64,000 nucleotides of DNA, taken from NCBI RefSeq assembly GCF_003260205.1, contig NZ_QERF01000011.1, forward strand, positions 124,001 through 188,000. The letters run 5' to 3'. The stretch is from Winogradskyella tangerina. GTDB lineage: Bacteria > Bacteroidota > Bacteroidia > Flavobacteriales > Flavobacteriaceae. Shown here piece by piece: positions 1-28,734 of the stretch. Position numbers and translations under genes: made by a program. Position 1 is the stretch's first letter; every line of letters starts with the position of its first letter. The notes beneath the pieces were generated by a model. It was not told where the DNA came from. It searched no databases and was given only the letters and a program-made list of their open reading frames with translations.

Positions 1-145
1 AACTGTTGCACTCAATGGGGCTAAAAATGCTGGAATTCTCGCTGCACAGATCTTAGGTAGTGCAGACCAGTGCATTTTAGATAAGGTTATTGTTTACAAA
101 GAAGGACTCAAGGCTAAAGTCATCGACTCGGCAAAAGACCTATAA
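1..145 (+). CDS. purE: PurE C-terminus (5-(carboxyamino)imidazole ribonucleotide mutase), partial
   Basis: The first 47 codons in frame 2 form the end of an open frame that stops at 143-145. The peptide contains NGAKNAGILAAQIL, which matches the conserved C-terminal helix of class I PurE, the enzyme that moves the carboxylate from N5-CAIR to CAIR in purine synthesis. The start and the catalytic N-terminal part lie outside the window. The fragment is too short for an independent ORF call, so the assignment rests on this motif and the correct frame. Confidence 0.8.
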   Translation, partial: TVALNGAKNAGILAAQILGSADQCILDKVIVYKEGLKAKVIDSAKDL

Positions 146-13431: not shown

Positions 13432-14226
13432 TCAGTCTAATTCTTTAAGCAAGTTTGATGCATTTTCAAAATTGAAAAGCTTTTCGTCTTTGATCTTATG
13501 TAATAGATTTCTAGCATCGTCTACCTTATCTTGTTTGAGATACAATAGTGCTTTATACCAATAGCCTTTTTCAGCATCGATTAAATCGCTATTAATTAAC
13601 GTATTGAACGTTATTTCTGCTTCAGAATATCTTTTGAGTTGTATTTGAGATATACCTTGATAAATCAGAACATTGCCCTTTGCTTCTGCAGAATTTAATT
13701 CTGATTCAAAAATTATCAAAGCCTCTTCATATTTTTCATCTTGAAATAGTTTTTGCGCTTCAGATAATTTGTTTTCGGTGTCATTTCTCGAAACGAAAGA
13801 AGGCAAACCATCTAGGTTCACATAATCATTATAAAGCGCTTCGGAAGTAATATTCTGATTGAAAAAGAACTGAAAACCTAAAAAGATAACAATCGAAGCA
13901 GCGGCTAAATAATAGAATAATCTACGCGTGCTATTTGAAGGTTTACCATTATCGTTCTGGCTGGCGTTAGTCGCGATTAGTGTTTTTTTTAAGCTTTGTA
14001 TATCGTCTGAAGCGAGAATCTTTTTGTAACTATCTACGTGTTCGTTATTTGAATCAATAAAGCTCCAATTCTGCTCATCAAGCGTCTCAAAGAGTTGTTT
14101 CTCGATCGTAAATTGCGTCTTAAAATCGGCGTCAACTTCTAATCGTTCTGTGAACAAACTTCTTTCGGCTTCAGATAATTGGTCTCTGAGAAATTTTTCA
14201 ATTAATATGTCATCCTCAATATTCAT
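13432..14226 (-). CDS. TPR membrane protein, putative anti-sigma partner
   Basis: This 264-residue protein has an N-terminal cytosolic part (about 1-100), a single membrane helix near residues 105-122 (LFYYLAAASIVIFLGF), and a periplasmic part with TPR-like repeats (about 145-260). It begins inside the end of the ECF sigma gene (4-nt overlap), the usual place of the factor that controls a sigma. No zinc motif is present. The TPR half may sense a periplasmic protein. Confidence 0.7.
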   Translation of the reverse strand: MNIEDDILIEKFLRDQLSEAERSLFTERLEVDADFKTQFTIEKQLFETLDEQNWSFIDSNNEHVDSYKKILASDDIQSLKKTLIATNASQNDNGKPSNSTRRLFYYLAAASIVIFLGFQFFFNQNITSEALYNDYVNLDGLPSFVSRNDTENKLSEAQKLFQDEKYEEALIIFESELNSAEAKGNVLIYQGISQIQLKRYSEAEITFNTLINSDLIDAEKGYWYKALLYLKQDKVDDARNLLHKIKDEKLFNFENASNLLKELD

Positions 14227-14786
14227 AAACTCTTGAGTTCGTTATAGCGAACATCACTTTTCACTAGATCCTTTAATTTATTTTTACACTTAAATACTCG
14301 TTGCCTTGCAACTGTTTCAGAATTATAATTAAACTGTTCAACCATTATTGCATAAGATACCTTAGCAAAAAATAATTTCAGAATGGCTTTACAGTTTTCA
14401 GAAATTAATTCCAGGGCTTCAGTGAATAATTCCCATCGTTTTTGTTCTAAAACTGATACAGCAATATCGTCATCTTCACTATTCAGTTCAATAACAGCAT
14501 CATTTGTTACCTTTAATTTCGACTTATTTAATTCGCGACGCCATAAATTTTTACAAACTGTAAACAAATACGCCTCAAAACTTGATTTAATTTCGAACTT
14601 TTCTTTCTTATATCTTACGGCGAGTTGTAATAATGCCTTTTGAAATATATCTTCAGCATCCTCTCTTCTACCCTTATTATTTGAAACAAAGCGTATTACA
14701 TTTCGGAATGATTTTTGATAAATATCTTTAACAACTGACTCATTATTTGTAACCAACCCTTCTAAATAATACCTCGGTTCATTCAT
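14223..14786 (-). CDS. ECF sigma factor of the CHAT locus
   Basis: This 187-residue sigma-70 family protein has region 2 (REDAEDIFQKALLQLA and FEAYLFTVCKNLWRRELNK) and a C-terminal region 4 with a less typical helix-turn-helix (AIMVEQFNYNSETVARQRVFKCKNKL). An upstream ATG at 14861 would add 25 residues lying across the likely promoter; ATG 14786 gives the normal ECF start. It is divergent from the lipoprotein/TPR-CHAT gene pair and overlaps its TPR membrane partner. Confidence 0.85.
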   Translation of the reverse strand: MNEPRYYLEGLVTNNESVVKDIYQKSFRNVIRFVSNNKGRREDAEDIFQKALLQLAVRYKKEKFEIKSSFEAYLFTVCKNLWRRELNKSKLKVTNDAVIELNSEDDDIAVSVLEQKRWELFTEALELISENCKAILKLFFAKVSYAIMVEQFNYNSETVARQRVFKCKNKLKDLVKSDVRYNELKSL

Positions 14787-14825
14787 GTTAGTTAAAATTA
14801 AAAGAAAATTAATTTTAGTGGGTAA

Positions 14826-14833
14826 CAAATATA
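14826..14833 (-). promoter_or_regulatory. -7 box of the ECF/TPR operon
   Basis: On the minus strand this reads TATATTTG, an exact TAnnTTTG, about 40 nt before the ATG at 14786. It supports ATG 14786 over 14861 as the sigma start. Confidence 0.5.
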
Positions 14834-14869
14834 TATTTTTATGAACACAAGGGTAAAACAATATTTATT

Positions 14870-15560: not shown

Positions 15561-18275
15561 ATGCGAAAACCATGTCGACTCTTTACCTATCTATTTTTTT
15601 TATTAGTTCCTCTATTAGTTAGTTCACAATCCATTAAAGAAATTCTCACCAATGATGAAATGTCGGTTGAGCAAAAGGAAATACAAGCTTCGGAGATATT
15701 AAATTCTTATAAGTCTAACAAAAATTTCGATTCTTTATTTCATAATAACTATGAGGTCATTAAGTGGTATAGAAAAATAGACAGCCTAGACAAAGCCATA
15801 GCGCTAAATAAGGAGAATTTAGAGTTAATGATTTCTTCGGATTACAACGACCCAACGTTTATCCGTAAAAATATATTTAGCTTAGGCTTTTATCAGAATA
15901 AAAATGGCAATAATATTGATGCGCTAGAGACATTTTCAAGACTATTAAATTATGAAGAGCCCGATAGCTATGCGATTTCTGCAACCTTCAAAATGGCAGA
16001 GATCTACTTTGTTGAGCGCGATCATTATAAAGCGCTAGAATATTACAAGCTCTGCAAGTCCATCTCAGAAAGTCTTAATGATGATTTCAATATTATCCGA
16101 GCAACCATCGGAATTGGACAAACCAGCACCAGAATTAACACTACTAAATCATTAAAAAATGGTATTGATATAACCACCAAAACTATAGCGCGTATTGAAT
16201 CTAACGAGTTAGCTTGTGCCCCTGACTGGCGATTTAAAATTTACAAACTTCTCGGTAATCTTCATTCAGATCGTACTGATTACAATTTTGAACTTGCCGA
16301 AAAACATCTCTTAAAAGCCTTAGAAATTGCCGAAACCATAGACAACCCTTACGAATTGGTCAACATCTATAATGATCTCGGTTTCACCTATCTGATGGAG
16401 AAAGACGAACGTGCCGAAAGTTATTTAATGAAGGCCTTAGATATTGGTCCGTATGGCATTATGTACACCATCGTTACCCGAAATTTAGCCAATCACCATT
16501 TGAATGCAGAAAACTTTGATCAGGCTTTACAGTATGCACAATTATCTTTGAGTGATGTTACAAATACTGAATTGCCTGAAATTACTGCATTACCAACTAA
16601 GGATGTTTTAAAAAATGTAAATGAAAAGTTACACGTTGTGTCTACCTTAGACACTAAAGTTGATATTTGGATTGAATTAGCGCATAGCAGCCAACAAAAA
16701 AAGGACTATTATTTTGAGCAAGCCTTAAAAACTATTGAACTCGCGGATGATTTGATAGACCTTGCTCGAATTGAAAATATTGATCTTAAGTCTAAACTAT
16801 TCTGGCGAAAAACGGCAACCGATCTTTATATAAAAGCCACAGAAGTTTGTTACGATCTTAAAAAGCCTGAAGCTGCTTTCTATTATATTGAAAAAAATAA
16901 AGCGCTTGTTTTACTTGAAGATATAGCCATAAAAACCTTGAGAAATAATTCGGAAGCCTCCAAAGATCTTATTGAACAAGAGCAATTACTTCGGGATAAA
17001 ATTTCGGCATTAGAAAAACAGAAAAACAACACAAATTCTGACGAGCTTCAGCGTGATTTATTATTAGCCAAAGCCGATTACGACGCTTTTATTAATTCGT
17101 TGAGCACAGATAATCAGATATATTTTAAAACCCATCAGCCGGCCAAGGTATTGGCGCTCGACGTTTTTCAAAGTCAATATTTAAATGATAAAACAGCATA
17201 CTTAGAGTATATATTAGACGATAAAGATGGTTACGGATTATTAATTACTAAAACCAGTCGTACACTTTTTAAGATCGAAGCTGCAGATTCACTTAAATCT
17301 ATGGCTATTACTTACCGTAGTTTAATCGACAAGCCATTTAAAACGAAGACCGATATTGAACGTTTCACGCGCATTTCGCATAAAATGTATAATGCTTTAA
17401 TTCCTTCAGAAATTAGAGACATTATAAAAGATAAAACACTCACGATAATACCAGATTATTATTTACAAAATATACCTTTTGAACCTTTGTGTACGCAGCA
17501 AAAAGACCTTAGCTATTTAATCTATGATCATCAGGTTAATTATGCATACAGCCTTTCGTTCTTAGCTGAGAATAACAAAATCGAAAGAAAAAATAACAAT
17601 CCAATTGTTGCCTTCGCGCCAATTGAGTTTGAGTCATTAGAACCCTTACCATATACGGAATATGAAATTTCTGTGATTGATTCAATTTTTAATGCTGAAA
17701 CCTATTCAAACGAAAAAGCCACTAAGGCAAATTTCTTCAAACACACTAACGATTACCAGATCATACATATAGCTTCACATGCAAATGCCTCTGACAGTAT
17801 AAGTCCGAAAATTTCGTTTTATGATGATGTCGCCACTTTGAATGAGCTTTATAATTTTAATAATTCAGCTGAGTTAGTGGTTTTAAGTGCCTGTAACACC
17901 TCTTTAGGGGAATTATATAAAGGTGAAGGTGTAATGAGTTTATCGCGAGGATTTTTTAATGCTGGTTCTAAAAGCGTGATGCCCACCTTGTGGGAAGTTA
18001 ACGATCGAACTACCTTAAATTTAGTGGAGTCCTTTTATTCAAACTTAAAAAATGGCCAAGACAAATCGTTGGCGCTTCATAATGCAAAATTGAATTATCT
18101 CGAATCAAATTCATTAAGCGATGCGTCTCCATATTACTGGGCTTCATTTGTGCTCATTGGAGATTCTGGTGAAATAAATTTAGTTGAGAAAACACCCCTT
18201 TATATATGGGGCATTCTTATCATTTTTTGTGTTCTAATTTTCATCCTTCTGAAAAAAAATAAAAAATTAGGGTAA
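15561..18275 (+). CDS. TPR-CHAT domain protein, membrane anchored
   Basis: This 904-residue protein has a Sec signal (cleavage near residue 23, VSSQS), TPR repeats over about residues 60-440, a coiled-coil patch near 470-500, and a C-terminal CHAT domain, a caspase-related cysteine protease fold. The catalytic dyad appears as H740 in IASHANAS and C778 in LSACNTS. A membrane helix (about 877-897) and a lysine-rich tail end the protein. The topology puts the CHAT domain outside the cytoplasm. It lies beside a divergent ECF sigma/TPR pair, so envelope stress signalling by proteolysis is one possible role. The substrate is unknown. Confidence 0.88.
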   Translation: MRKPCRLFTYLFFLLVPLLVSSQSIKEILTNDEMSVEQKEIQASEILNSYKSNKNFDSLFHNNYEVIKWYRKIDSLDKAIALNKENLELMISSDYNDPTFIRKNIFSLGFYQNKNGNNIDALETFSRLLNYEEPDSYAISATFKMAEIYFVERDHYKALEYYKLCKSISESLNDDFNIIRATIGIGQTSTRINTTKSLKNGIDITTKTIARIESNELACAPDWRFKIYKLLGNLHSDRTDYNFELAEKHLLKALEIAETIDNPYELVNIYNDLGFTYLMEKDERAESYLMKALDIGPYGIMYTIVTRNLANHHLNAENFDQALQYAQLSLSDVTNTELPEITALPTKDVLKNVNEKLHVVSTLDTKVDIWIELAHSSQQKKDYYFEQALKTIELADDLIDLARIENIDLKSKLFWRKTATDLYIKATEVCYDLKKPEAAFYYIEKNKALVLLEDIAIKTLRNNSEASKDLIEQEQLLRDKISALEKQKNNTNSDELQRDLLLAKADYDAFINSLSTDNQIYFKTHQPAKVLALDVFQSQYLNDKTAYLEYILDDKDGYGLLITKTSRTLFKIEAADSLKSMAITYRSLIDKPFKTKTDIERFTRISHKMYNALIPSEIRDIIKDKTLTIIPDYYLQNIPFEPLCTQQKDLSYLIYDHQVNYAYSLSFLAENNKIERKNNNPIVAFAPIEFESLEPLPYTEYEISVIDSIFNAETYSNEKATKANFFKHTNDYQIIHIASHANASDSISPKISFYDDVATLNELYNFNNSAELVVLSACNTSLGELYKGEGVMSLSRGFFNAGSKSVMPTLWEVNDRTTLNLVESFYSNLKNGQDKSLALHNAKLNYLESNSLSDASPYYWASFVLIGDSGEINLVEKTPLYIWGILIIFCVLIFILLKKNKKLG

Positions 18276-18293: not shown

Positions 18294-18325
18294 ACAGTAA
18301 AGTAAATAATAAAACGATTTACTGT
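18294..18325 (+). promoter_or_regulatory. Hairpin over the GTG start of the VKOR fusion gene
   Basis: ACAGTAAA (18294-18301) pairs with TTTACTGT (18318-18325), which includes the first two bases of the GTG start. An alternative 7-bp stem uses AGTAAAT (18301-18307) with ATTTACT (18317-18323). Either would hide the start region in the mRNA. Confidence 0.4.
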
Positions 18326-19937
18326 GAAAGACCCTTTTTGTTATCTGGTTGAATTACTCTTAAAAAAGAACGATCTCTTAATAGATTTTGAAGAATTGAC
18401 TTTTCAGATTAAAAGTCATCCTTCATTTCCAAGCCTTCATGCTATCACAGGTGTACTCGATCATTTTAATATCGAAAACCTAGCACTAGATATTCCGATT
18501 AACGCTTCAACCTTAAAGCAACTTCCTGAGACGTTTCTGGCTCAAGTTGAAATTGATGGTAAAAAGAAATTTGCAACTGTAACGAAATCAAAACAGCAAT
18601 ACAAGCTTCATTTTGGCATTAAGGACAAAACAACTGTCGATGAAAATTACTTTTTAGAATGTTTTACGGGTGTTGTCTTAATTGTAGATAAGACTGAAGA
18701 TTTTTCAATTATCAATAAAACCAATACTGTTAAGAACATTGTTAAAGGTTTGTCTGTTGTTGCGCTGTTGACTGTAACTGCGATTCTGATTTTTGGAAAC
18801 TTAGCCGTATCTGATTATTTATTTGTAACAACTTCAATACTCGGTATCTATCTGTCGTCTATTATTATTAGGCAAGAACAGGGCGAATCTACCAAAATCG
18901 GTAATGCTTTCTGTTCGGGAGATGACGAGAGGAAAGATTGTAACGCGGTTCTTAACTCAAACGCAGCTACACTTGTGGAAGGTTTAAAATTAAGTGACTT
19001 AAGCCTCATATTTTTTGCAGGATTAACGCTGGCGTCTTTAATTTTAGTAAGCTCAAATTCTGAAATCTACTCTGTAAAATTATTGAGTGTTCTTGGATTT
19101 CCTGTGACTATATTTTCAATTTACTATCAATTCATAAAAATTAAGAAATGGTGCTTTCTATGCTTAGGAATCGTTGGAATTCTTTGGACTCAAGCTGCAC
19201 TATTTGCTTATAGTTCTAATGCAGAATTCAACGTAAACCACATCTTAATAGCCCTATTCTCATTTTCCATTACGGCATTAACTTGGTTAGTATTTTCAAA
19301 AATCTATAGGGAGAAGGAAGAACTCAATCAAATAAAGATCAAATACTTTAAGTTTAAGAGAAATTTTGGGCTCTTCAATGATCAATTATTAAAATCCCCA
19401 ACACTACCAACGCAGATCCCAGGCATAAATGAAATTGTCTATGGAAACCCAACGAGTCAATTTCACTTAATACTAATAACCAATCCTTTATGTGGGTATT
19501 GCAAAACAACTCACCAAATTTTAAATCAGGCGCTAAAGCAATTTAATAACGAATTGAAGATCACTATAAGATTTAATATTCAATCTGTAGACTATAATAA
19601 TTCAGCAGTAAAAATTGCATTGCGACTTCTAGAAATATATCATACCTACTCACCCGAAGCCTGCAGAGAAGCATTAGACGACATCTACGGAAACCACACT
19701 ATAAAAGACTGGTTTAATAAATGGAATGAGGCCGATAGTCCTGAAAATTACAAACATATTTTGCAAAACGAAGCGCAATGGTGTCAGCAAAACAACATCA
19801 ACTTCACACCAGAAATATTGGTCAATGGCCATTCCTATCCTAAAATGTATGAACGAAAAGATCTCATGCATTTTATGGAAGAACTACTAGAGGATCATAA
19901 AAATCAACACTGGCAAATACCTCTGGCAAAAGTTTAA
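18324..19937 (+). CDS. C39-like / VKOR / thioredoxin fusion, disulfide catalyst for exported peptides
   Basis: This 537-residue membrane protein has three parts. Residues 1-125 resemble a C39 peptidase domain without the catalytic cysteine, the type known in other exporters to bind leaders without cutting. Residues 138-330 have about six helices and the VKOR cysteines: C197/C206 in the loop and the quinone-side pair C277/C280 (WCFLC). Residues 370-537 are a thioredoxin/DsbA-like domain with C390-GY-C393. VKOR passes electrons from thiols to quinone, so the protein should form disulfides in the periplasm. The adjacent peptides have four cysteines each. Start is GTG. Confidence 0.85.
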   Translation: MKDPFCYLVELLLKKNDLLIDFEELTFQIKSHPSFPSLHAITGVLDHFNIENLALDIPINASTLKQLPETFLAQVEIDGKKKFATVTKSKQQYKLHFGIKDKTTVDENYFLECFTGVVLIVDKTEDFSIINKTNTVKNIVKGLSVVALLTVTAILIFGNLAVSDYLFVTTSILGIYLSSIIIRQEQGESTKIGNAFCSGDDERKDCNAVLNSNAATLVEGLKLSDLSLIFFAGLTLASLILVSSNSEIYSVKLLSVLGFPVTIFSIYYQFIKIKKWCFLCLGIVGILWTQAALFAYSSNAEFNVNHILIALFSFSITALTWLVFSKIYREKEELNQIKIKYFKFKRNFGLFNDQLLKSPTLPTQIPGINEIVYGNPTSQFHLILITNPLCGYCKTTHQILNQALKQFNNELKITIRFNIQSVDYNNSAVKIALRLLEIYHTYSPEACREALDDIYGNHTIKDWFNKWNEADSPENYKHILQNEAQWCQQNNINFTPEILVNGHSYPKMYERKDLMHFMEELLEDHKNQHWQIPLAKV

Positions 19938-20029
19938 ATAACACTTAAGAACATAAACCATTTCAGTTATAAATGAATTCTACTAGCATTCACTTATAGA
20001 CACTTTATGTCAAACATGAACCAATACAC

Positions 20030-22219
20030 TTGAAAACAAAGTTTCCTACATATCGACAAACAGAAGCTAAAGATTGTGGCCCTACCTGTATAAAAATAAT
20101 TGCTAAGCATTATGGCAAGACAATTAATACTCAGGAATTGAGAGAACTCAGTGAGACCACACGATTAGGTAGCAATTTAATGTGCTTAAGCGATGCTGCA
20201 GAGTCTATTGGATTTAGATCATTAGGCATAAAACTTTCATATAAAAAACTTAAGGAAGCGCCTTTACCGTGCATTCTCCACTGGAACAATGAGCATTATG
20301 TTGTAGCCTACAAAATTAAGAACGACACCGTTTATATTTCAGATCCTGCACATGGACTTTTAACCTACAAGAAAGATGAATTCATTAGGTCATGGATAGG
20401 TTCTAATGCAGATGAAAATACACAAGATGGAATTGCACTTTTGTTAGAACCAACACCTAAATTCTATCAAAACGAATTTGAAAATAATGAAACGTTTGGA
20501 TTTAGTTTTATCCTGAAATATCTGATTAAATACAAACGATTTATTCTTCAATTGATCATCGGATTAATTGCTGGAAGTCTATTACAACTCATCTTACCTT
20601 TTCTAACTCAAAGTATAGTAGATATTGGTATTCAGAATCAGGACTTAAACTTTGTTTACCTCATCCTATTTGCCCAACTCGCCTTATTTATTGGGAAAGC
20701 CTCGTTAGAAATTATTCGAAGTTGGATTCTTTTACACCTTAGCACACGCATCAATATTTCACTCATATCAGACTTTTTTATAAAACTGATGAACTTACCT
20801 ATATCCTACTTCGATGTGCGTATGACGGGTGATCTGATGCAGCGAATTAATGATCATAAACGTATTGAACAAATTTTAACCACATCGTCCTTAACCATAA
20901 TTTTTTCATTGTTCAACTTCATAATTTTCAGCTGCGTCCTAGTGTACTATAGCGCACAAATTTTCGGTGTGTTTTTGTTAGGCAGCGTAATTTATGTCGT
21001 GTGGGTAATATTCTTTTTCAAAAAACGAAAAGAACTTGATTACAAGCGCTTCTCGCAGGTTAGTGATGAGCAAAGTAAGGTTATAGAACTCATCAACGGC
21101 ATGCAAGAAATTAAACTTCACAACGCCGAGCGTCGTATGCGATGGAACTGGGAATATGTTCAAGCTAAACTCTTTAAAATAGCGGTCAAGAATTTAGCCT
21201 TAGAGCAAACACAAAGTGTAGGATCGAGCCTAATTAATGAGCTCAAAAACATATTTATTACCATCCTTTCTGCAACTCTAGTTATTGAAGGAAACATCAC
21301 CCTCGGTATGATGATGGCCATTAGCTATATGGTTGGTCAACTCAACGGCCCGATCATTCAACTTATTGGGTTTTTACGTCAATTTCAGGATGCAAAAATT
21401 TCATTAGAACGTTTAGGAGAAATCCATAACATGAAAGATGAAGAAGACCAAAGCGCATCTAAAGTTTACAATATACCTGAGGAGTCGGATATAGTGGTTA
21501 ACAACATTTCTTTCAGATATTCTGGAGCTCTCGAGCCCGTAATCAAAGATCTTTCACTTCGAATCCCGGCAAATAAAATCACGGCAATTGTTGGCACAAG
21601 TGGTAGCGGTAAAACAACACTTATGAAATTGCTATTACGGTTCTATGACATTGATAAAGGTGAGATTTTAATAAAGAATTTCAACATCAACAATATCTCT
21701 CAAAAAATCTGGCGCGACAACTGCGGTGTAGTTATGCAAGAAGGATTCATCTTTAATGATACTATTGCTCAGAATATAGCCGTAGGTGAAGACATAATAG
21801 ACATTGACCGCCTTAATTACGCCATTAAAATGGCTAACATTTCAGATTTTATAAACCAATTACCGCGGCATTATAACACCAAAATTGGAAGTGAGGGACA
21901 TGGTCTAAGTACCGGACAAAAACAGCGCCTACTTATCGCTAGAGCAATTTACAAAAACCCAAAGTTCTTATTCTTTGACGAAGCAACATCAGCTCTAGAT
22001 GCTAATAACGAAAAAATAATAATGGAAAACCTTGATAATGTTTTTAGGGAAAAAACCGTGCTGGTTATTGCCCACCGATTAAGCACCGTAAAAAACGCCC
22101 ACCAGATTGTGGTTCTAGAAGATGGAAAGATCGTAGAGATCGGCAATCATGATCAACTCATAAAAAATAAAGCCAACTATTTCAACCTGGTAAAGAACCA
22201 GCTAGAATTAGGGAAATAA
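20030..22219 (+). CDS. Peptidase C39 ABC exporter of double-glycine peptides
   Basis: This 729-residue protein is a peptidase-containing ABC transporter. The N-terminal C39 domain has its full triad: C16 in KDCGPTC, H89 in EHYVVAY and D105 in ISDPA. Transmembrane helices cover about 155-430. The nucleotide-binding domain has Walker A GTSGSGKTT (about 523-531), signature LSTGQKQRLL and Walker B FLFFDEATSALD. It should cut leaders after GG and export the peptide. A TAG at 19997 closes the frame upstream, so TTG 20030 is the start. Substrates lie directly downstream. Confidence 0.95.
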   Translation: MKTKFPTYRQTEAKDCGPTCIKIIAKHYGKTINTQELRELSETTRLGSNLMCLSDAAESIGFRSLGIKLSYKKLKEAPLPCILHWNNEHYVVAYKIKNDTVYISDPAHGLLTYKKDEFIRSWIGSNADENTQDGIALLLEPTPKFYQNEFENNETFGFSFILKYLIKYKRFILQLIIGLIAGSLLQLILPFLTQSIVDIGIQNQDLNFVYLILFAQLALFIGKASLEIIRSWILLHLSTRINISLISDFFIKLMNLPISYFDVRMTGDLMQRINDHKRIEQILTTSSLTIIFSLFNFIIFSCVLVYYSAQIFGVFLLGSVIYVVWVIFFFKKRKELDYKRFSQVSDEQSKVIELINGMQEIKLHNAERRMRWNWEYVQAKLFKIAVKNLALEQTQSVGSSLINELKNIFITILSATLVIEGNITLGMMMAISYMVGQLNGPIIQLIGFLRQFQDAKISLERLGEIHNMKDEEDQSASKVYNIPEESDIVVNNISFRYSGALEPVIKDLSLRIPANKITAIVGTSGSGKTTLMKLLLRFYDIDKGEILIKNFNINNISQKIWRDNCGVVMQEGFIFNDTIAQNIAVGEDIIDIDRLNYAIKMANISDFINQLPRHYNTKIGSEGHGLSTGQKQRLLIARAIYKNPKFLFFDEATSALDANNEKIIMENLDNVFREKTVLVIAHRLSTVKNAHQIVVLEDGKIVEIGNHDQLIKNKANYFNLVKNQLELGK

Positions 22220-22240
22220 AAATATTCAATCGCGAAGAAT

Positions 22241-22275
22241 AGACACAACCCTTGGGTGTCTTTAAACGACCAAGG
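22241..22275 (+). ncRNA. H-type pseudoknot leader element, copy 1
   Basis: Stem 1 is AGACAC (22241-22246) with GTGTCT (22256-22261). Stem 2 is CCTTGG (22250-22255) in its loop with CCAAGG (22270-22275). The 8-nt linker is TTAAACGA. It ends 27 nt before the ATG of peptide 1. GCGAA precedes it at 22232. Copies 2 and 3 have the same geometry with paired base changes. Confidence 0.82.
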
Positions 22276-22302
22276 CTAATTTAATTTTTAAAACAAGTAA
22301 TT

Positions 22303-22530
22303 ATGAAAAATTTAAAAAATTTAGGAAAAACTTTAAGCAAAGTAGAACAAAAAAATGTACTAGGCGGTGATACTCTTAAGCGTTACCCAGGTGAAGGATT
22401 TGAGTGTATTGAAGGAATGTGCGACAATATGCCAAACCCAAATTATAACCCATTAGAAACCGCACATAATCCAGGAAATCCTGTATTTGTTAAAGGTGTT
22501 TGTAGAGACGGTGAATGTTTTTACGAATAA
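22303..22530 (+). CDS. Double-glycine secreted peptide 1 (four cysteines)
   Basis: This 75-residue precursor has a 22-residue leader ending VLGG, of the LGK-L-EQK type used by Bacteroidota C39 exporters; 13 of 22 leader residues equal those of peptide 2. The 53-residue product has cysteines at 35, 40, 67 and 72 in two C-x4-C pairs within FECIEGMC and VCRDGEC, and a Pro/Asn-rich middle. Two disulfides are likely. It follows the exporter gene by 83 nt. A bacteriocin or signal role is possible, but no known class is recognised. Confidence 0.85.
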   Translation: MKNLKNLGKTLSKVEQKNVLGGDTLKRYPGEGFECIEGMCDNMPNPNYNPLETAHNPGNPVFVKGVCRDGECFYE

Positions 22531-22539
22531 AAAGACTCT

Positions 22540-22570
22540 AAGAGGGAGCTGAGCTCCCTCTTATTTTATT
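22540..22570 (+). terminator. Terminator after peptide 1
   Basis: AAGAGGGAGC (22540-22549) pairs perfectly with GCTCCCTCTT (22553-22562) over a 3-nt loop, followed by ATTTTATT. Partial read-through would reach the adaptor gene. Confidence 0.7.
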
Positions 22571-22628
22571 CTTAAACCTAGAAAAGGCCATTTAAACCTC
22601 AATTATAAATAGACTAAACCCAGTGTCA

Positions 22629-23918
22629 ATGGAAGCAAATGATGAAAGAATAGTACTCCGTAGCGAACATGTGCAAGAGTTATTGAATGCTGTACCTAAC
22701 CGCATAATTAGATATGGAAATCTGCTAATTTTTTCATTTATCCTATTATTGATTGGGCTGTCTTGGTTTATAAAATATCCGGATATCATTGCATCTCAAG
22801 CCATAGTCACGACGAGTTTTCCACCCCAAAAGAATATCGCTAGGATAACCGGGAAAATTGATACTCTATTTATAAAAGAAAATCAAAGTGTTCAAGAAAA
22901 TGAGGTTATTGCTCTACTTGAGAACACCGCTAATTTTCATCATATTAAACTGCTTGGGTCCATTATCGACACCATCAAACCGAATAACAAAACCTTTAGT
23001 TTTCCTATTAATGAATTGCCTATTCTGTTCTTAGGAGAAATAGATTCAGAATATGCCCTTTTTGAAAACAGCTACATTGAATATCAAATCAATAAAACGC
23101 ATCAGCCCATAAGTAATGAACAGTTAGGAAATAATTTTTCAATTCAACAGTTGTATTCTAGATTAAATACACTTCGATCTCAAAAAAATATTAATAAAGC
23201 CGAATTAGAGTATCAAAGAAATGATTTAGAGCGACAAAGGCAACTTTACGACAAAGGCGTAATTGCCAAGCAGATTTTAGAAACCTCTGAATTGGCTTTT
23301 TTGCAGGCTCAGCGCAACTATGCTAATATGGATGCTTCAATATCTCAATTAGTTGAGTCTATAAATGCCGCCAAAACTAATAAGCGTAGTACGCAGATTA
23401 AGAAGAGTAAGGAAGAAATACGCTTATTGAAAAACGTACTCCAATCCTTTAACCAACTAAAACGAGCCCTTCAAGAATGGAATACTAAATACACCTTACG
23501 GTCTGATATAGATGGAAAAGTAGCATTTTCAAAAACATGGGCGGCACACCAAAACGTGAGTCAAGGCGAGCTTATGTTCACTATTATTCCTGAAAAAAAC
23601 TCAAGGTTCATCGGAAAGTTGAAAACACCTTCTCAAAATTTTGGTAAAATCAAACATCATCAGAAGGTTATTATCAAGCTAGAAAATTACCCCGAAAATG
23701 AATTCGGAACAATAGAAGGCGAGGTTGAGTCCATACCGATATTACCTGATGAAAATGGATTTTACAATATATCAGTTAGCCTACCTAGTAATCTTATAAC
23801 ATCATATAATAAAAAGATTGAATTTAAGCATGAAATGCGTGCCTCGGCTGAAATAATAACCGAAGATCTAAGGCTCATAGACCGATTATTTTATCAATTA
23901 AGAAACTTATTTAAATAG
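22629..23918 (+). CDS. HlyD family membrane fusion adaptor
   Basis: This 429-residue protein has one membrane helix (about 32-52), a split lipoyl/barrel-sandwich region (about 68-100 and 290-320), and a long coiled-coil hairpin (about 170-275) rich in Gln, Leu and Lys. It is the periplasmic adaptor for the C39 exporter, linking it to an outer membrane channel that is not encoded nearby. A GTG at 22623 would add two residues; ATG 22629 is preferred. It sits between the two peptide genes. Confidence 0.88.
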   Translation: MEANDERIVLRSEHVQELLNAVPNRIIRYGNLLIFSFILLLIGLSWFIKYPDIIASQAIVTTSFPPQKNIARITGKIDTLFIKENQSVQENEVIALLENTANFHHIKLLGSIIDTIKPNNKTFSFPINELPILFLGEIDSEYALFENSYIEYQINKTHQPISNEQLGNNFSIQQLYSRLNTLRSQKNINKAELEYQRNDLERQRQLYDKGVIAKQILETSELAFLQAQRNYANMDASISQLVESINAAKTNKRSTQIKKSKEEIRLLKNVLQSFNQLKRALQEWNTKYTLRSDIDGKVAFSKTWAAHQNVSQGELMFTIIPEKNSRFIGKLKTPSQNFGKIKHHQKVIIKLENYPENEFGTIEGEVESIPILPDENGFYNISVSLPSNLITSYNKKIEFKHEMRASAEIITEDLRLIDRLFYQLRNLFK

Positions 23919-23939
23919 AAAAAAATCATTGCGCAAGAT

Positions 23940-23974
23940 GGACACAGGTCTTGGGTGTCCTAAAAAGACCAAGA
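23940..23974 (+). ncRNA. H-type pseudoknot leader element, copy 2
   Basis: Stem 1 is GGACAC (23940-23945) with GTGTCC (23955-23960). Stem 2 is TCTTGG (23949-23954) with CCAAGA (23969-23974). The linker is TAAAAAGA. Against copy 1, the outer pair of stem 1 changes from A-U to G-C and the outer pair of stem 2 from C-G to U-A. It ends 26 nt before the ATG of peptide 2. Confidence 0.82.
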
Positions 23975-24000
23975 AAATTTAACATTTAATAGTATTAATT

Positions 24001-24207
24001 ATGAACAATTTTAAAAACTTAGGGAAAGCCCTAAACCGTATTGAACAAAAGAGCATTTTTGGAGGATCAGAACCAATAAAACATGCAAGAGAGGAAGAAG
24101 AATGTACTTACGACTATGATTACCATATTCCTTGCCCAGTATATACTTCGAATAGCGACGGTGGATGTTGGGCTACAGTTGTGACTTGTGGATCAACACT
24201 TAGTTAA
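24001..24207 (+). CDS. Double-glycine secreted peptide 2 (four cysteines)
   Basis: This 68-residue precursor has a 22-residue leader ending IFGG, matching the leader of peptide 1. The 46-residue product has cysteines at 35, 45, 56 and 63, an acidic EEEE run before the first, tyrosines in YDYDYH, and a small hydrophobic end. The first cysteine lies 13 residues after GG, as in peptide 1, but the rest of the product differs. It follows the HlyD gene by 82 nt, is preceded by a pseudoknot and followed by a terminator. Confidence 0.83.
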   Translation: MNNFKNLGKALNRIEQKSIFGGSEPIKHAREEEECTYDYDYHIPCPVYTSNSDGGCWATVVTCGSTLS

Positions 24208-24219
24208 CCATCAACTATT

Positions 24220-24252
24220 GAACTACCTTTTATCGAGGTAGTTCTTTTTTTT
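24220..24252 (+). terminator. Terminator after peptide 2
   Basis: GAACTACC (24220-24227) pairs perfectly with GGTAGTTC (24237-24244) and is followed by a run of eight T. Confidence 0.85.
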
Positions 24253-24438
24253 ACTCATATCATATTCTTTAAAGTAGGATTTCTAATAATGAGGTGTATA
24301 TCCTAGTTATAAGAATGAACTACAACCACCTAAATATCACCTACTTACTTTCGGCTACCACATTGAACCTCACAAAACACTAACCTTTCTGGCCTTATTT
24401 TTCGATACCTTAAGTATTTGAATATAAATGATCTAATG

Positions 24439-24483
24439 CTTTTAGCGACCGTTGAAATAAATACTATTTCAACCTGCTAAAAG
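24439..24483. promoter_or_regulatory. Two-part palindrome upstream of the histidine kinase gene
   Basis: Outer arms CTTTTAGC (24439-24446) and GCTAAAAG (24476-24483) enclose inner arms GTTGAAATA (24451-24459) and TATTTCAAC (24465-24473): 17 pairs in all. It ends 6 nt before a -7 box, so it covers the -33 region and is likely an operator. Confidence 0.6.
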
Positions 24484-24489
24484 TAACCG

Positions 24490-24497
24490 TATATTTG
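24490..24497 (+). promoter_or_regulatory. -7 box of the histidine kinase operon
   Basis: TATATTTG is an exact TAnnTTTG, 44 nt before the ATG at 24542. No TTG is seen at -33; the palindrome lies there instead, which fits a promoter needing an activator. Confidence 0.55.
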
Positions 24498-24541
24498 TTT
24501 ATATTGTTTCTAGCTAACCATTAATTTTTTGGTCGATTTTT

Positions 24542-26356
24542 ATGCGGCATTTTCTAACCATTCTTACTTTCATTTGTTTATTATTTTGTTGCAGTTGTAA
24601 CGTTGATAATGAAATTTCAAGAATTATTTATTTACAGGAAAAAGCGAAGAATAATGTTAATGATTCTACACTTACCTACATTAAAGAAGCACAGGATATC
24701 ATTGATAAAGGCGTTAATATCCCAGACACTTTGATAACTGAAAACATCTTCAGAAAAGGACGCTATTTTAAAAAAATTAATGAATTAGATTCAGCATCTT
24801 ATTATTACCATCTTGTAACTGACCGTATTGAAGCACCCAATAACAGAGCTAGGAATTTAGTATACTTTAGAAACACCTGGGAAACTGATGAAGCATTAAG
24901 AAATTATAAAAATGCCATAGCAACAATATTAAAATTCATAGAAATCACTGACCCAGAAAAACGACAAGGTGATGTTCAATTTGCATATAATACTTTGCAG
25001 AGATTATACTATGATCTGGGAAACTCTAAGAAAGAATTAGAGTATAGTAACCTAGCTAGTAACGCTGCGCTTTTAGCAGATGATTTAAGTATGTACGTCG
25101 TTACTAAAAGTCATAGCGCATACATTCTAGCGCGAGATTATTATAAACCAAAAGAGGCACTTATATTACTTGATAGCCTAGATACAATTGATGCAAGTGA
25201 TGCTGCAAAATATCAGCTATATAGAAATACCGGTATAGCACATTATTACGACGCCAATCTTAATGAAGCCATTAATTTTTACAAACGCTCGTTGTCCTTG
25301 GCAAAAGAAGTTGAAGTTAATCGTGATAACAATTTACTTGAAGCATACAGTAATATAGCTGAAGCTTATATTGATGTAAAAGAATATGACAAAGCAAAAA
25401 AGCATTTAGATTCAGCTAAAGTTTATATCACGCCTAATTCGCCGACATCTACATTAAATTTCTTTTATAGTCTTCTACTCAATCTTAATGAAAAGACTAA
25501 TTCTGACAAGGAAAATTTAGCTAATCAATTCAAGTCATTGATAAAAATCAGCAACCAGCAATACGAGAAAAGAATAAATCAAGAACTTTTTGATCTAAAG
25601 CTTGCCAATGCTAGCGAACAAAAAGCACTCAATGAAAGGAATACTGCTCGGATTAATAATCTTAAACTTTGGGCTGCTTTGGGCGTTTTAGCCCTTCTTG
25701 TCCTTTCAGGATATCTGTATTACAGGCAAAGGCAATTCAAGTTTGAACGCGAAAGTCTTCAAATGCAACAGCGACTTCTGCGCTCTCAGATGAATCCGCA
25801 CTTTATCTTTAATACTTTATCTGTTATTCAGAATCAAGTAAAAGAAAATAAGGATGATGCTGTTAATTATCTCATTAAATTTTCTAGACTATTGCGGTTA
25901 ATTTTAGAAAACAGTCTTAGTGATTATGTAGAATTAGAAGATGAAATCGAATCGTTACGAAAGTACTTAGACCTTCAATTATTTCGGTTCCCTAACAAGT
26001 TTGAATACCATATAGAATTAGCAAATATTGAAGACGAAAGTGAATTTTTAATTCCGCCTATGCTTATTCAACCTTTCGTCGAAAACAGTATTGAACACGG
26101 GTTTTTAGATTTAAATTACAAAGGTCAATTACGCATTAATTTGAGCTTAGATGATAAATGGATATCTTGTAAAATTGAAGATAATGGCGTTGGTATAAAC
26201 AATTCAAATTCGAAACTTAAAAATTCGGTTTCTGTAAAATTAATTTCGAGATTCCTTAAAAAAACAACAAAACAAGACTTAAGAGTAACCAATAAAAAAG
26301 ATATTGATCCCAACACGTCGGGCGTGTTAGTAGAGTTTTTAATCCCCTTTAAATAA
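24542..26356 (+). CDS. TPR sensor histidine kinase (LytS/YehU type)
   Basis: This 604-residue protein has an export signal with a cluster of cysteines (CCSC, about 16-19), a periplasmic TPR region (about 60-300), a coiled segment, one membrane helix (about 378-395) and a cytosolic kinase of the LytS type. The phospho-acceptor is H420 in NPHFIFNTL; the N box is QPFVENSIEHG and the G box DNGVGI. The response regulator gene follows after 7 nt. It may sense the product or state of the nearby peptide system, which is an inference from position. Confidence 0.9.
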   Translation: MRHFLTILTFICLLFCCSCNVDNEISRIIYLQEKAKNNVNDSTLTYIKEAQDIIDKGVNIPDTLITENIFRKGRYFKKINELDSASYYYHLVTDRIEAPNNRARNLVYFRNTWETDEALRNYKNAIATILKFIEITDPEKRQGDVQFAYNTLQRLYYDLGNSKKELEYSNLASNAALLADDLSMYVVTKSHSAYILARDYYKPKEALILLDSLDTIDASDAAKYQLYRNTGIAHYYDANLNEAINFYKRSLSLAKEVEVNRDNNLLEAYSNIAEAYIDVKEYDKAKKHLDSAKVYITPNSPTSTLNFFYSLLLNLNEKTNSDKENLANQFKSLIKISNQQYEKRINQELFDLKLANASEQKALNERNTARINNLKLWAALGVLALLVLSGYLYYRQRQFKFERESLQMQQRLLRSQMNPHFIFNTLSVIQNQVKENKDDAVNYLIKFSRLLRLILENSLSDYVELEDEIESLRKYLDLQLFRFPNKFEYHIELANIEDESEFLIPPMLIQPFVENSIEHGFLDLNYKGQLRINLSLDDKWISCKIEDNGVGINNSNSKLKNSVSVKLISRFLKKTTKQDLRVTNKKDIDPNTSGVLVEFLIPFK

Positions 26357-26363
26357 TGAGAAG

Positions 26364-27101
26364 ATGGTAAGAGCAATATTAATAGATGATGAGGCTTACA
26401 TAAGACAAGAAATTAAAGAAAAATTAAGTGAGCATTTTAGCACTGAGATAGATATTGTTGGAGAGGCAGATAGTGTTTCCAAAGCAATTTCGCTTATAGA
26501 GGAAAAGAAACCAAACCTCGTATTCTTAGATATTAACCTTCAAGACGGAACCGGATTTGATATACTTAATAGTATCAGCGACAAATCCTTCGATGTGATT
26601 TTTGTAACAGGTTTTGATAATCACGCTATTAAAGCCATTAAAGTTGGCGCCTTAGACTACATATTAAAACCTATTGACGACGAGGAATTTATTAAAGCTG
26701 TTACCAAAGCCATTGAAAACTCGAAAGAAAATGTTAACCTAGAAAAATTGGTTGAAATTTCAAGTGAGTACTTTCAAGGTGTAACCAAAAAGCGTATTGT
26801 TTTAAAAACACTTGAAAATGTTTATGTCGTATATGAAGATGATATTAGCCATTGCAAATCTGATGGAAATTACACTACTTTTTATACCCAGCAGTCTGAA
26901 AAAATCTTGATATCAAAACCACTAAAAAAAATATTGGAGTTACTTTCTGAAGATATATTTATTCGCTGCCATCAATCTTATTTAGTAAACAAAAAACATG
27001 TAACTCGTTATAATAAACAAGGGTTTCTACTAATGAACTCTAGAGTTAAAGTTCCTGTTTCGAGCAGAAGAAAAGACTACGTTATCGATAAAATCTTTTG
27101 A
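26364..27101 (+). CDS. LytTR family response regulator
   Basis: This 245-residue protein has a receiver domain (1-120) with acidic pocket D8/D9 and phospho-acceptor D56 in VFLDINLQDG, and a C-terminal LytTR DNA-binding domain (about 140-243) with IRCHQSYLVNKKHV and VPVSSRRKD. It is the partner of the kinase just upstream. In LytTR systems next to double-glycine peptides in Gram-positive bacteria the peptide is often the inducer; whether that is so here is unknown. Confidence 0.93.
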   Translation: MVRAILIDDEAYIRQEIKEKLSEHFSTEIDIVGEADSVSKAISLIEEKKPNLVFLDINLQDGTGFDILNSISDKSFDVIFVTGFDNHAIKAIKVGALDYILKPIDDEEFIKAVTKAIENSKENVNLEKLVEISSEYFQGVTKKRIVLKTLENVYVVYEDDISHCKSDGNYTTFYTQQSEKILISKPLKKILELLSEDIFIRCHQSYLVNKKHVTRYNKQGFLLMNSRVKVPVSSRRKDYVIDKIF

Positions 27102-27235
27102 TATAAATATCTTTTTTGTTGCGAATTTGAAATTACAAATATCAAATATGAATCAAAATTGATAATAATAGATTTTAGACATTGGTTGTATTTACCTTGC
27201 TCAAAAATTCTAATAATTTAAAATCTAAATTTGTT

Positions 27236-28030
27236 ATGACTAAAATTAAATTTCTTTTAATCTTACTGGTTGCAACAGTAATTTACTGTTGTAGCACAAA
27301 TGACATCAATGAAGAATCTACGGAAGTAGAATTTATTGAAGGTCTTGAATCTAAAATCTCAAACACAAAGGATTCTGATCAGCAAACCGATAGTTTTAGA
27401 ACTATTGATGAAATTGAAGATTTAGAACTTAAAATGCAATGGGTGTCTTACTTAACGGCACAAGTACTATTTAGAGATACCAATGCGAGACGTCAATTTG
27501 AAGAAGAATTCGATTTCACAGATGGAATTGATGTGGTAGCACTTGAGGATCTCATTGGTGATCATGCACCATACGATCACTTTAGGAATACTTTTAAAAC
27601 AGAATTCCTTTTTCATTATCACTATACAAGTGGTGATGGATCATCACCTTGTGATGTTGGTAAACCAAGTGGTCGTCCGGCTCCAATTATTGATGGTGGA
27701 GACCTCATCTTAGATGACGACGTCTTATTTAATAATTACGTAGATTATTTATTAAATGACGATTGCTTAGAGTATTATTTACCTAACGGACTAAATACAA
27801 TGACACTCGGTGGATGGGGTCTTCCAGGCACTTATACAAGCACGGCACATCCTCTGACTGATAGCAACAATAATTATGCATTCACGCATCGATCATTATG
27901 CAATGTAAGTCATAGTCGCGTTAGGCCTTCAACGTTAGGAAATATCATTGTGGTTAGACCGTTTAGAACAAACACAAGCTGTCCATATACTGATTACCCT
28001 CAATTAAATTTTACAGACTTTTTGAACTAA
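27236..28030 (+). CDS. Lipoprotein of unknown function
   Basis: This 264-residue protein has a lipoprotein-like signal (KFLLILLVATVIYCCS, cysteines 18-19), an acidic linker with EESTEVEF, a helical part (about 60-125) and an Asp/Gly/Asn-rich second half with three more cysteines. A TTG at 27182 would add 18 residues without a signal-like start, so ATG 27236 is chosen. It follows the response regulator and ends with a strong terminator. I do not recognise the family. Confidence 0.65.
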   Translation: MTKIKFLLILLVATVIYCCSTNDINEESTEVEFIEGLESKISNTKDSDQQTDSFRTIDEIEDLELKMQWVSYLTAQVLFRDTNARRQFEEEFDFTDGIDVVALEDLIGDHAPYDHFRNTFKTEFLFHYHYTSGDGSSPCDVGKPSGRPAPIIDGGDLILDDDVLFNNYVDYLLNDDCLEYYLPNGLNTMTLGGWGLPGTYTSTAHPLTDSNNNYAFTHRSLCNVSHSRVRPSTLGNIIVVRPFRTNTSCPYTDYPQLNFTDFLN

Positions 28031-28050
28031 CAATAAACTCTTAATACTAA

Positions 28051-28084
28051 AAAAAACCTCTCGAATAATCGAGAGGTTTTTTTA
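28051..28084 (+). terminator. Strong terminator after the lipoprotein gene
   Basis: AAACCTCTCGA and TCGAGAGGTTT pair perfectly across a 4-nt loop, followed by a run of T. It isolates the next gene. Confidence 0.88.
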
Positions 28085-28236
28085 TGCCCAAATCTATCTG
28101 ATTCCAATTAAATACGAATTTGAAATAAGGTACCGCACTTTTGAATTCACTATGGTGTAGCCCTGCTTTTTTATAGACATTTATGATGTATTAGTAAAAC
28201 ACTAATGCAGTAAAAAAACATTTTCGCGAAATCAAC

Positions 28237-28271
28237 AGACAGAAGCTGTAACTGTCTTAAAACGTTTACAG
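28237..28271 (+). ncRNA. H-type pseudoknot leader element, copy 3
   Basis: Stem 1 is AGACAG (28237-28242) with CTGTCT (28252-28257). Stem 2 is CTGTAA (28246-28251) with TTACAG (28266-28271). The linker is TAAAACGT. The stem 2 sequence is almost wholly different from copies 1 and 2 yet fully paired. It ends 25 nt before the ATG at 28297. GCGAA lies upstream at 28226. Confidence 0.82.
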
Positions 28272-28296
28272 AACTTAAATTTTAAAATCTATTATT

Positions 28297-28734
28297 ATGA
28301 AAAATTTATTTGTTGTTTTATTTATGTGTTTCTCAGTATCTGCTTTTTGTCAACTTCAACAAGACAAAGGAGGAAGTGGTCTCGGAACTGGTGGTGGCAC
28401 TGGTGGCGGTGGAATTAATCCACTTACTGAATTCCAAATGGGAAGAAGCAACGGTTGTACTGATGGTAGTCGTTCGCTATCACAGGCTCAAAATGCATGG
28501 GATGATATTATGAACAACCCTGCAATTAGTCTCATTTATAAAGAAGGTTATGAAGGTGGTTGGATGACCTGCCGTTTCCAAAGAGCTGCAGGAACTATTA
28601 TCACTGAATCTGGTATGACAAATGAGGCGCAGTGCTTCAACTTCGGACAATCTTGTGACGCTGTTACTTGGTATAGTATTGCAAATTGTTTTGCTGATGG
28701 TGAATGCGGTCAGCAAAGTAGTGGAAGTAATTAG
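28297..28734 (+). CDS. Small Sec-secreted cysteine-rich protein with glycine-rich start
   Basis: This 145-residue protein has a Sec signal peptide (1-18, ending SAFC before Q19), a Gly-rich stretch (residues 25-39), and a domain with six cysteines (54, 92, 113, 120, 131, 137). It has no double-glycine leader, so it should leave by Sec rather than by the C39 exporter. It shares the pseudoknot leader with the two exported peptides and is followed by a terminator. The function is unknown; three disulfides are possible. Confidence 0.75.
   Translation: MKNLFVVLFMCFSVSAFCQLQQDKGGSGLGTGGGTGGGGINPLTEFQMGRSNGCTDGSRSLSQAQNAWDDIMNNPAISLIYKEGYEGGWMTCRFQRAAGTIITESGMTNEAQCFNFGQSCDAVTWYSIANCFADGECGQQSSGSN

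Follow-up and report, generated by a model that had tools for sequence, protein, structure and literature searches.

Introduction

Why should three genes of one bacterial locus be preceded by the same small fold, built each time from different letters? The question was raised by a stretch of 64,000 nucleotides (nt) from Winogradskyella tangerina (contig NZ_QERF01000011.1 of assembly GCF_003260205.1, positions 124,001 to 188,000), hereafter the window. Here, the original prediction had described three copies of a 35-nt H-type RNA pseudoknot, each ending shortly before an ATG. We report that these copies belong to a family of elements found mostly in marine Flavobacteriaceae, mostly in front of small genes with a double-glycine-like leader. 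Comparison of the copies makes the conserved pseudoknot structure of the family near-certain, and we discuss what such an element might do.

Results

Three copies with one geometry

On re-extraction, the three copies have exactly the claimed geometry (a stem 1 of 6 base pairs (bp), a 3-nt loop, a 6-bp stem 2, no junction and an 8-nt loop 3), 36 of 36 pairs are Watson-Crick, and the distances to the ATG come out again at 27, 26 and 25 nt. A strict descriptor of this geometry (6-3-6-0-7..9, Watson-Crick only) matches the window three times on the + strand and never on the - strand. In 20 Markov shuffles of the window it matches once altogether, i.e. 0.05 per shuffled window. The GCG-containing stretch noticed before each copy is also present and can be described more closely, as the loop region of a small hairpin that we call P0. 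The parts of the three elements are as follows.

22224..22240, + strand: P0 hairpin of copy 1, stem AUUC/GAAU, loop with GCG; 4 nt past the end of a C39 ATP-binding cassette (ABC) transporter gene
22241..22275, + strand: H-type pseudoknot copy 1, AGACAC/GUGUCU and CCUUGG/CCAAGG
22276..22302, + strand: A/U-rich spacer to the start codon, copy 1, 27 nt
23925..23939, + strand: P0 of copy 2, weak, AUC/GAU, inner UUGCGCAA; 6 nt past the end of an HlyD gene
23940..23974, + strand: H-type pseudoknot copy 2, GGACAC/GUGUCC and UCUUGG/CCAAGA
23975..24000, + strand: A/U-rich spacer to the start codon, copy 2, 26 nt
28220..28232, + strand: P0 hairpin of copy 3, AUUU/AAAU
28237..28271, + strand: H-type pseudoknot copy 3, AGACAG/CUGUCU and CUGUAA/UUACAG
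28272..28296, + strand: A/U-rich spacer to the start codon, copy 3, 25 nt

Between P0 and the stem 1 that follows it there is no gap in copies 1 and 2 and one of 4 nt in copy 3; the P0 of copy 2 has three contiguous pairs. Nested folding of the window leaders forms P0 in copy 1 only. When the 35-mers are folded in isolation, copies 1 and 3 come out as a stem 2 hairpin and copy 2 as stem 1, each being the nested structure of lowest energy. Nested (pseudoknot-free) folding thus gives one stem or the other, never both, as expected if the knot is a true one.

Collecting the family

We built a covariance model (R1) from the three window copies, in which stem 1 alone was modelled as pairs while the letters of stem 2 entered the consensus. 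Hence, the pairing of stem 2 among R1 matches serves as a test. Against 100 genomes of the same family, R1 gave 47 matches in 14 genomes at E <=0.1, with 19 matches in one genome, five in each of two and four in another. After removal of two duplicates and six other matches, 39 were aligned (alignment A2). Five minus-strand matches outside A2 all read as a knot (scores 22.5-29), with an ATG 26-27 nt on. In W. tangerina itself, five covariance-model searches (one at E <=0.1, four at E <=0.001) returned the three window copies only.

A DNA pattern that left the 3' strand of stem 2 wholly free, and constrained its 5' strand to a purine at one position, matched 94 stretches in one-per-species genomes, of which 80 were taken as 8-kb loci (the named loci). 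A second model, R2, was searched at E <=0.01 on these loci (183 matches) and on 53 further sources (90 matches). This resulted in 259 distinct matches, 255 of them long enough to score, and 241 scored at least 20 with a knot descriptor; three of the 241 were read in the wrong register (geometry 7-4-7-1-9). The 14 copies scoring below 20 include decayed-looking or variant ones, found before VKOR or C39 transporter genes, as well as some that are cut short or poorly aligned.

Two alignments were fitted to stem 1 and left unfiltered on stem 2: A3, from the best 150 of the 183 matches (146 distinct rows), and A4 (80 rows). Two further sets were preselected, namely A5 (92 of 94 copies with a score of at least 22, two misregistered rows being left out) and 210 anchored copies with a score of at least 20 and GRCA/TGYC. 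The descriptor rewards pairing and the percentages of the preselected sets are therefore biased upward, so that the unfiltered pattern set, A3 and A4 are our main evidence. The search of Bacteroidota that had been proposed yielded many further copies. The refuting outcome named in the original prediction, no further copies before small secreted-protein genes, did not come about, although the genome of W. tangerina has just its three.

Evidence for an RNA pseudoknot

The stems pair in nearly all copies while their sequences change. Of the stem 2 cells in A2, 98.3% are paired, and each of the six pairs shows two-sided changes. In the pattern set (94 distinct 60-mers from the 80 loci), the six stem 2 pairs are complete in 86 of 94 sequences (553 of 564 cells) and involve 15 different 5' strands, whereas permuting the 3' strands leaves stem 2 complete in 33.8 sequences on average and in 43 at most. 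Standard pairs make up 98.6% of 1742 cells in A3 and 96.9% of 943 cells in A4. Either alignment has nine pairs with two-sided changes, including all six of stem 2, and the covariation scores are 0.278 and 0.532, against 0.125 and 0.216 in the respective shuffles. None of 500 shuffles reaches the paired fraction of A3 or A4, and slid registers pair at 24-58%. The same holds in A4 for the two-sided cells and the covariation score, each reached by 0 of 500 shuffles. Yet, by one measure A4 is ordinary: its number of two-sided pairs, nine, is matched by 113 of 500 shuffles. In the preselected A5, 96.0% of cells are paired and 11 of 12 pairs are two-sided. When column pairs of the 210 copies are ranked by corrected mutual information, stem pairs take ranks 1-4, 6 and 8-10, and the pairs at ranks 5 and 7 belong to the P0 loop.

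The departures from Watson-Crick pairing indicate the strand. A3 and A4 together contain, over both stems, 149 G-U pairs, 16 A-C and 37 other mismatches; stem 2 of the pattern set has 42 G-U and three A-C. This excess suggests that selection acts on the sense RNA, read in the direction of the gene. At the extreme, both stems have been replaced, as in loci L019 (GGACC/GGTCC and TCTAAT/ATTAGG, with a one-base junction), L018 (AGTCAT/ATGACT) and L070 (TGTCAA/TTGACA); all three keep an A-rich loop 3 and have their start codon 23-27 nt on. With further copies, compensatory changes in both stems and the G-U excess, the idea of a genuine covarying H-type pseudoknot is strongly supported.

Two explanations that dispense with an RNA fold have to be weighed against these data. 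The element might act as DNA, either as a repressor operator made of two interleaved palindromes or as a recombination site shuffling peptide cassettes. Both stems are indeed inverted repeats in DNA, units of element and open reading frame (ORF) occur in arrays, and one genome has three copies in which element and spacer are identical and the peptides differ. But the asymmetry between G-U and A-C is unlike a DNA dyad, and we rejected the palindrome reading on this ground. The near-fixed distance to the ATG, and a knot geometry that is kept while the stem sequences change, also argue against a DNA element, which we hold to be very improbable. Chance, or similarity inherited without function, has in its favour the common ancestry of the copies and the decay of some tandem ones. 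Still, the paired fraction is beyond every shuffle, all slid registers are far lower, and stems can be wholly replaced with the fold kept, as in L019, so that we give this explanation practically no weight.

Core, P0 and variant copies

The usual geometry of the knot is 6-3-6-0-8. Loop 3 (about YUAAAUGW) and stem 1 (GRCA/UGYC) are conserved, and eleven columns are invariant or nearly so in the 92 copies of A5. A P0 of at least 4 bp adjoining stem 1 is present in 172 of 219 copies, versus 46 after one shuffle of each, and in A2 78.5% of its cells are paired, with three two-sided pairs. Since P0 is absent from 47 of the 219 copies, the knot is the core and P0 optional. Palindromes of 6 nt occur in 58 of the 172 P0 loops and palindromes of 4 nt in 29, and the other 85 loops have neither. 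We considered a kissing dimer formed through self-complementary P0 loops, but the loop motif varies too little to tell. An upstream ORF starting at the AAATG of loop 3 was rejected, since this ATG is missing from the window copies and from others. A further hairpin 5' of the element is enriched, with 80 of 232 cases; shuffles give 13-21, and the sequence farther upstream gives 31 of 223. It is not general, and we attribute it to the end of the gene before.

Variant and broken copies were also seen. In the window, positions 19995-20029, before the C39 transporter gene, hold TATAGACACTTTATGTCA, which resembles a decayed element, with a knot score of just 7.5. Loci L094, L137 and L134 have P0 and a broken knot before what is apparently the same gene. 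At L080:1501-1559 and L142:505-561, P0 and a shortened stem 1, with no stem 2, precede an ORF of 492-493 amino acids, VKOR-type by eye, and genes of export clusters may thus carry variant elements. At about 420-495 (+) of L090, before a double-glycine gene, stem 2 and the 3' strand of stem 1 are kept and the 5' strand of stem 1 is lost; this leader is a decaying element in a tandem array.

Distance to the start codon

The knot ends 25-31 nt before the ATG in 212 of the 237 copies for which a start was found; for four of the 241 there was none. Over 213 spacers, G makes up 2.1% and C 7.4% of the letters, and G before 308 other ORFs is at 10.9%. Peptide genes themselves differ in this respect, with G at 1.7% of positions -20..-1 when a knot precedes (n=154) versus 6.1% when it does not (n=47). 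TTAA occurs 6.96 times per 100 nt of spacer, versus 3.96 in shuffles of those spacers, and in peptide genes 6.77 times with and 4.18 times without a knot. Within a length class, the mean identity of spacers is 51-54%.

Genes around the element

A loose regular expression finds a double-glycine-like leader in 217 of the 241 downstream ORFs. Nine others are lipoprotein- or Sec-like by eye, three of them Aquimarina homologues and one the gene after window copy 3; the element is hence no mere passenger of the double-glycine leader. When eight downstream proteins were scanned, one (locus L063) passed the TIGR04149 cut-off (28.1 vs 25), one was NF047798-like below the cut-off, two lipoprotein-like ones had weak matches below cut-off, and four had no match. 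Conversely, of 266 double-glycine ORFs in the loci, 154 follow a knot scoring at least 24 (3 of 200 when shuffled), 22 are intermediate and 90 score below 20. A gap of at least 100 nt precedes 82 of the 154 with a knot, and 56 of the 90 without one start less than 60 nt after another ORF.

At the window locus a C39 peptidase ABC transporter and double-glycine leader peptides are both present. The genes concerned are the following.

18324..19937, + strand: VKOR/thioredoxin-domain protein gene (PF07884, E 6.3e-13), homologues in 33 of the 80 named loci
20030..22219, + strand: peptide-cleaving C39 ABC transporter gene (PF03412, E 9.4e-35), directly 5' of copy 1
22303..22530, + strand: double-glycine leader peptide gene after copy 1, 75 amino acids, MKNLKNLGKTLSKVEQKNVLGG...; NF047798 leader_Chryseo at E 0.042, below cut-off
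22623..23918, + strand: HlyD-type adaptor gene (PF13437, E 6.6e-14), directly 5' of copy 2
24001..24207, + strand: double-glycine leader peptide gene after copy 2, 68 amino acids; NF047798 at E 0.23, below cut-off
28297..28734, + strand: protein gene after copy 3, 145 amino acids, Sec-signal-like start by eye, no double-glycine leader and no family match in profile scans

In the window, and often in the named loci, the element stands between co-directional genes of one cluster. Gene-cluster labels of the named loci were checked by BLAST against the window proteins. Among 166 elements of these loci, the gene ending at most 150 nt upstream is VKOR in 26 cases, HlyD in 25 and C39-ABC in 20, and the match begins at most 8 nt from the gene end in 24 of the 25 HlyD and 12 of the 20 C39-ABC cases, window copies 1 and 2 being alike. 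A promoter upstream of the element was considered and rejected: TAnnTTTG, the flavobacterial -7 promoter motif, is no commoner than chance in the 150 nt upstream (16 vs 19.5 expected, n=228).

Other genes of the window were noted in passing. Between copies 2 and 3 (24542-27101) lie a TPR histidine kinase (PF06580) and a LytTR response regulator (PF00072, PF04397), with four BLAST homologues each in the 80 named loci. The large TPR/CHAT-domain protein 5' of the cluster (15561-18275; PF12770, E 1.4e-53) has homologues in 14 of the 80 loci and is thus probably part of the system. On the - strand, 13432-14861 holds two ORFs (212 and 264 amino acids) that look by eye like an extracytoplasmic function (ECF) sigma factor and its partner; ORF clusters resembling these, by look alone, occur in five of the 80 loci each.

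Distribution

The named loci come mostly from marine Flavobacteriaceae (Tenacibaculum, Winogradskyella, Polaribacter, Psychroserpens, Aquimarina, Dokdonia, Bizionia, Lacinutrix, Lutibacter and others), and two Roseivirga metagenome bins are also among them. At E <=0.001, and counting W. tangerina itself, matches were found in 6 of 41 genomes of the genus, 9 of 196 of the order (seven of the own family), 6 of 295 of the class (five) and 14 of 395 of the phylum (twelve). These counts are lower bounds, as 13-132 candidates were scored per genome and the searches are of limited sensitivity, and the draws for order, class and phylum share genomes. Within a genus the element is patchy, which suggests that it comes and goes with the peptide clusters. 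The DNA pattern found no match in viral contigs, nor did one element with its flanks, used as a query, in plasmids. Against phages, this query gave one 35-nt match (88.6%) to its 3' end. The match lies in Bacteroides phage MT074141.1 (11024-11058), overlaps the start of a small hypothetical gene, and is probably a likeness between A/U-rich start regions.

Discussion

Relation to known RNAs

The original prediction knew of no named RNA family that fits, and our scans agree. At gathering score the 4227 families of Rfam 15 found two tRNAs only in the whole window and nothing in five loci with copies, and at E <=10 the ten weak matches in 22180-28400 fall on none of the knots. The preQ1-I riboswitch is also an H-type pseudoknot of about 35 nt with an A-rich loop 3, and in it the 3' strand of stem 2 overlaps the ribosome binding site. 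The flavobacterial element is similar in size, fold and loop 3. It differs in having no Rfam match, other downstream genes and a stem 2 3' strand that lies off the ribosome site. The intercistronic stabilisers of processed mRNAs such as papA and puf, simple hairpins and RNase E sites, are placed between cistrons of low and high need. Our element has a like position but is a conserved pseudoknot at a near-fixed distance from the AUG. Bacteroidota C39 double-glycine peptides (NF047798 leader_Chryseo, TIGR04149) are of the same general kind as the downstream genes; these are protein families, and their one-line descriptions mention no RNA element.

The T4/RB69 gene 32 operator, as described in PMC535899, is likewise an intercistronic pseudoknot, 5' of a less structured UUAAA/UAAA leader that reaches the start codon. 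The flavobacterial knot, too, is followed by a UUAA(A)-rich leader that appears open, as judged from composition. Yet, the operator serves the autoregulation of a phage single-stranded DNA-binding protein (SSB) and has a knot of about 28 nt and a leader of more than 40 nt (PMC535899), whereas the present element has a 35-nt knot, an additional P0 and many cellular copies before exported peptides. No SSB lies downstream of it: the ORFs are small leader peptides or lipoprotein-like, and the eight that were scanned had no SSB match. The STAXI motif is also a pseudoknot repeated several times per locus, but according to PMC2864571 it belongs to Enterobacteriales, lies near genes of DNA-handling proteins and has two or three knots in tandem; our Rfam scans gave no match to it. 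A literature search aimed at the element found no description of it, within incomplete journal coverage and with possible overlap with the 64 structured 5' regions of a Flavobacterium listed in the supplement of PMC9723704. Structured leaders and H-type knots are already known; as far as tested, a knot tagging exported-peptide genes at a near-fixed distance from the AUG is new.

What the element might do

The original prediction had offered a sensor, a 5' stabiliser or translation control as possible roles. Given where the element sits, with no promoter nearby and an open start region, the latter two are favoured over a riboswitch that hides the ribosome site. We tentatively prefer, at slightly under an even chance, to see the element as a cis-acting intercistronic RNA leader by which the peptide cistron would be expressed separately from the transport genes of the same transcript and at a higher level. 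The cell probably requires more of the peptide precursor than of the pumps whose genes lie beside it, and the module would turn the peptide cistron into an independent, highly expressed unit of a shared transcript. The AU-rich RNA that follows the upstream stop codon would be cleaved somewhere before P0. The hairpin and the pseudoknot would then form a closed 5' end, slowing decay by a 5'-end-sensing enzyme of the RNase E/G type, with loop 3 running along stem 1. The unstructured spacer would put the knot just outside the expected 30S footprint and leave the initiation site open. A protected 5' end or favourable initiation, either or both, would raise peptide output relative to the transport genes. 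Chances are about even that the leader works in this manner, by stability and/or ribosome recruitment. The genome encodes an RNase E/G (412.7 bits), and RNase J had no match in it at E <=0.001. In Flavobacterium johnsoniae, whose phylum naturally lacks Shine-Dalgarno sequences, both upstream adenines and the structure around the start codon (about -20 to +20) are described as tuning initiation (PMC6847099). Here, the stretch next to the start would be left open, to go by its composition.

Several points weigh against this leader. Co-transcription is deduced from gene order, and that the RNase E/G of this group senses 5' ends is an assumption carried over from other bacteria. A passive barrier need not be a pseudoknot, and eleven near-invariant columns exceed what a plain barrier needs; they would suit a ligand or a protein. 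The regular spacing may partly reflect element and leader being copied as a block. Finally, a third or so of the double-glycine ORFs (the 90 of 266 mentioned above) have no knot, and in 17 of these 90 the gap is at least 100 nt.

One might speculate instead that a single orphan RNA, the pseudoknot leader, is read by one protein or small signal and so switches a whole flavobacterial exported-peptide regulon post-transcriptionally. Many peptide genes would then be set on or off together at the mRNA level, which would make the element a cell's equivalent of the gene 32 operator of the phage. We find this doubtful. In the manner of the T4 operator, a trans-acting protein might bind the knot and then the U/A-rich leader, and so switch the translation of the regulon. 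The layout of a pseudoknot followed by a G-poor, TTAA-rich single strand is shared with that operator (PMC535899), the many copies per genome, up to 19, would suit one common regulator, and loop 3 and the core of stem 1 are conserved. Yet, by eye no RNA- or single-stranded-DNA-binding protein was recognised in the 22 most widespread ORF clusters, built from ORFs of at least 110 amino acids in the 8-kb loci, which proteins of cold-shock size or distant ones would escape. Besides, the TTAA excess may stem from shared descent of the spacers, and the downstream genes are not SSB genes, so that regulation would not be autogenous. Such a protein seems unlikely to us. An orphan riboswitch, in which a small molecule binds the compact knot and adjusts translation or stability of the peptide gene, seems more unlikely still. 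It would have the size and fold of the small H-type riboswitches preQ1-I and SAM-II, it has conserved loop nucleotides, and it is common to dispersed genes of one apparent function. But with stem 2 mostly ending 25-31 nt short of the start codon, the knot itself leaves the ribosome site uncovered, the G- and C-poor spacer has no room for a G+C-rich terminator between knot and start, and we saw neither a metabolic gene among the listed downstream ORFs nor an Rfam match.

Implications

Flavobacterial exported-peptide clusters are, to our knowledge, numerous and little studied. An RNA handle shared by most of the peptide genes seen is a marker for new exported peptides, including those without a double-glycine leader, and gives a direct way into testing the control of these clusters. 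In addition, a knot replicated by nature in many variants would be useful for the study of how a knot held at a near-fixed distance from the start codon affects initiation in bacteria that, as reported for this phylum in PMC6847099, do without Shine-Dalgarno sequences.

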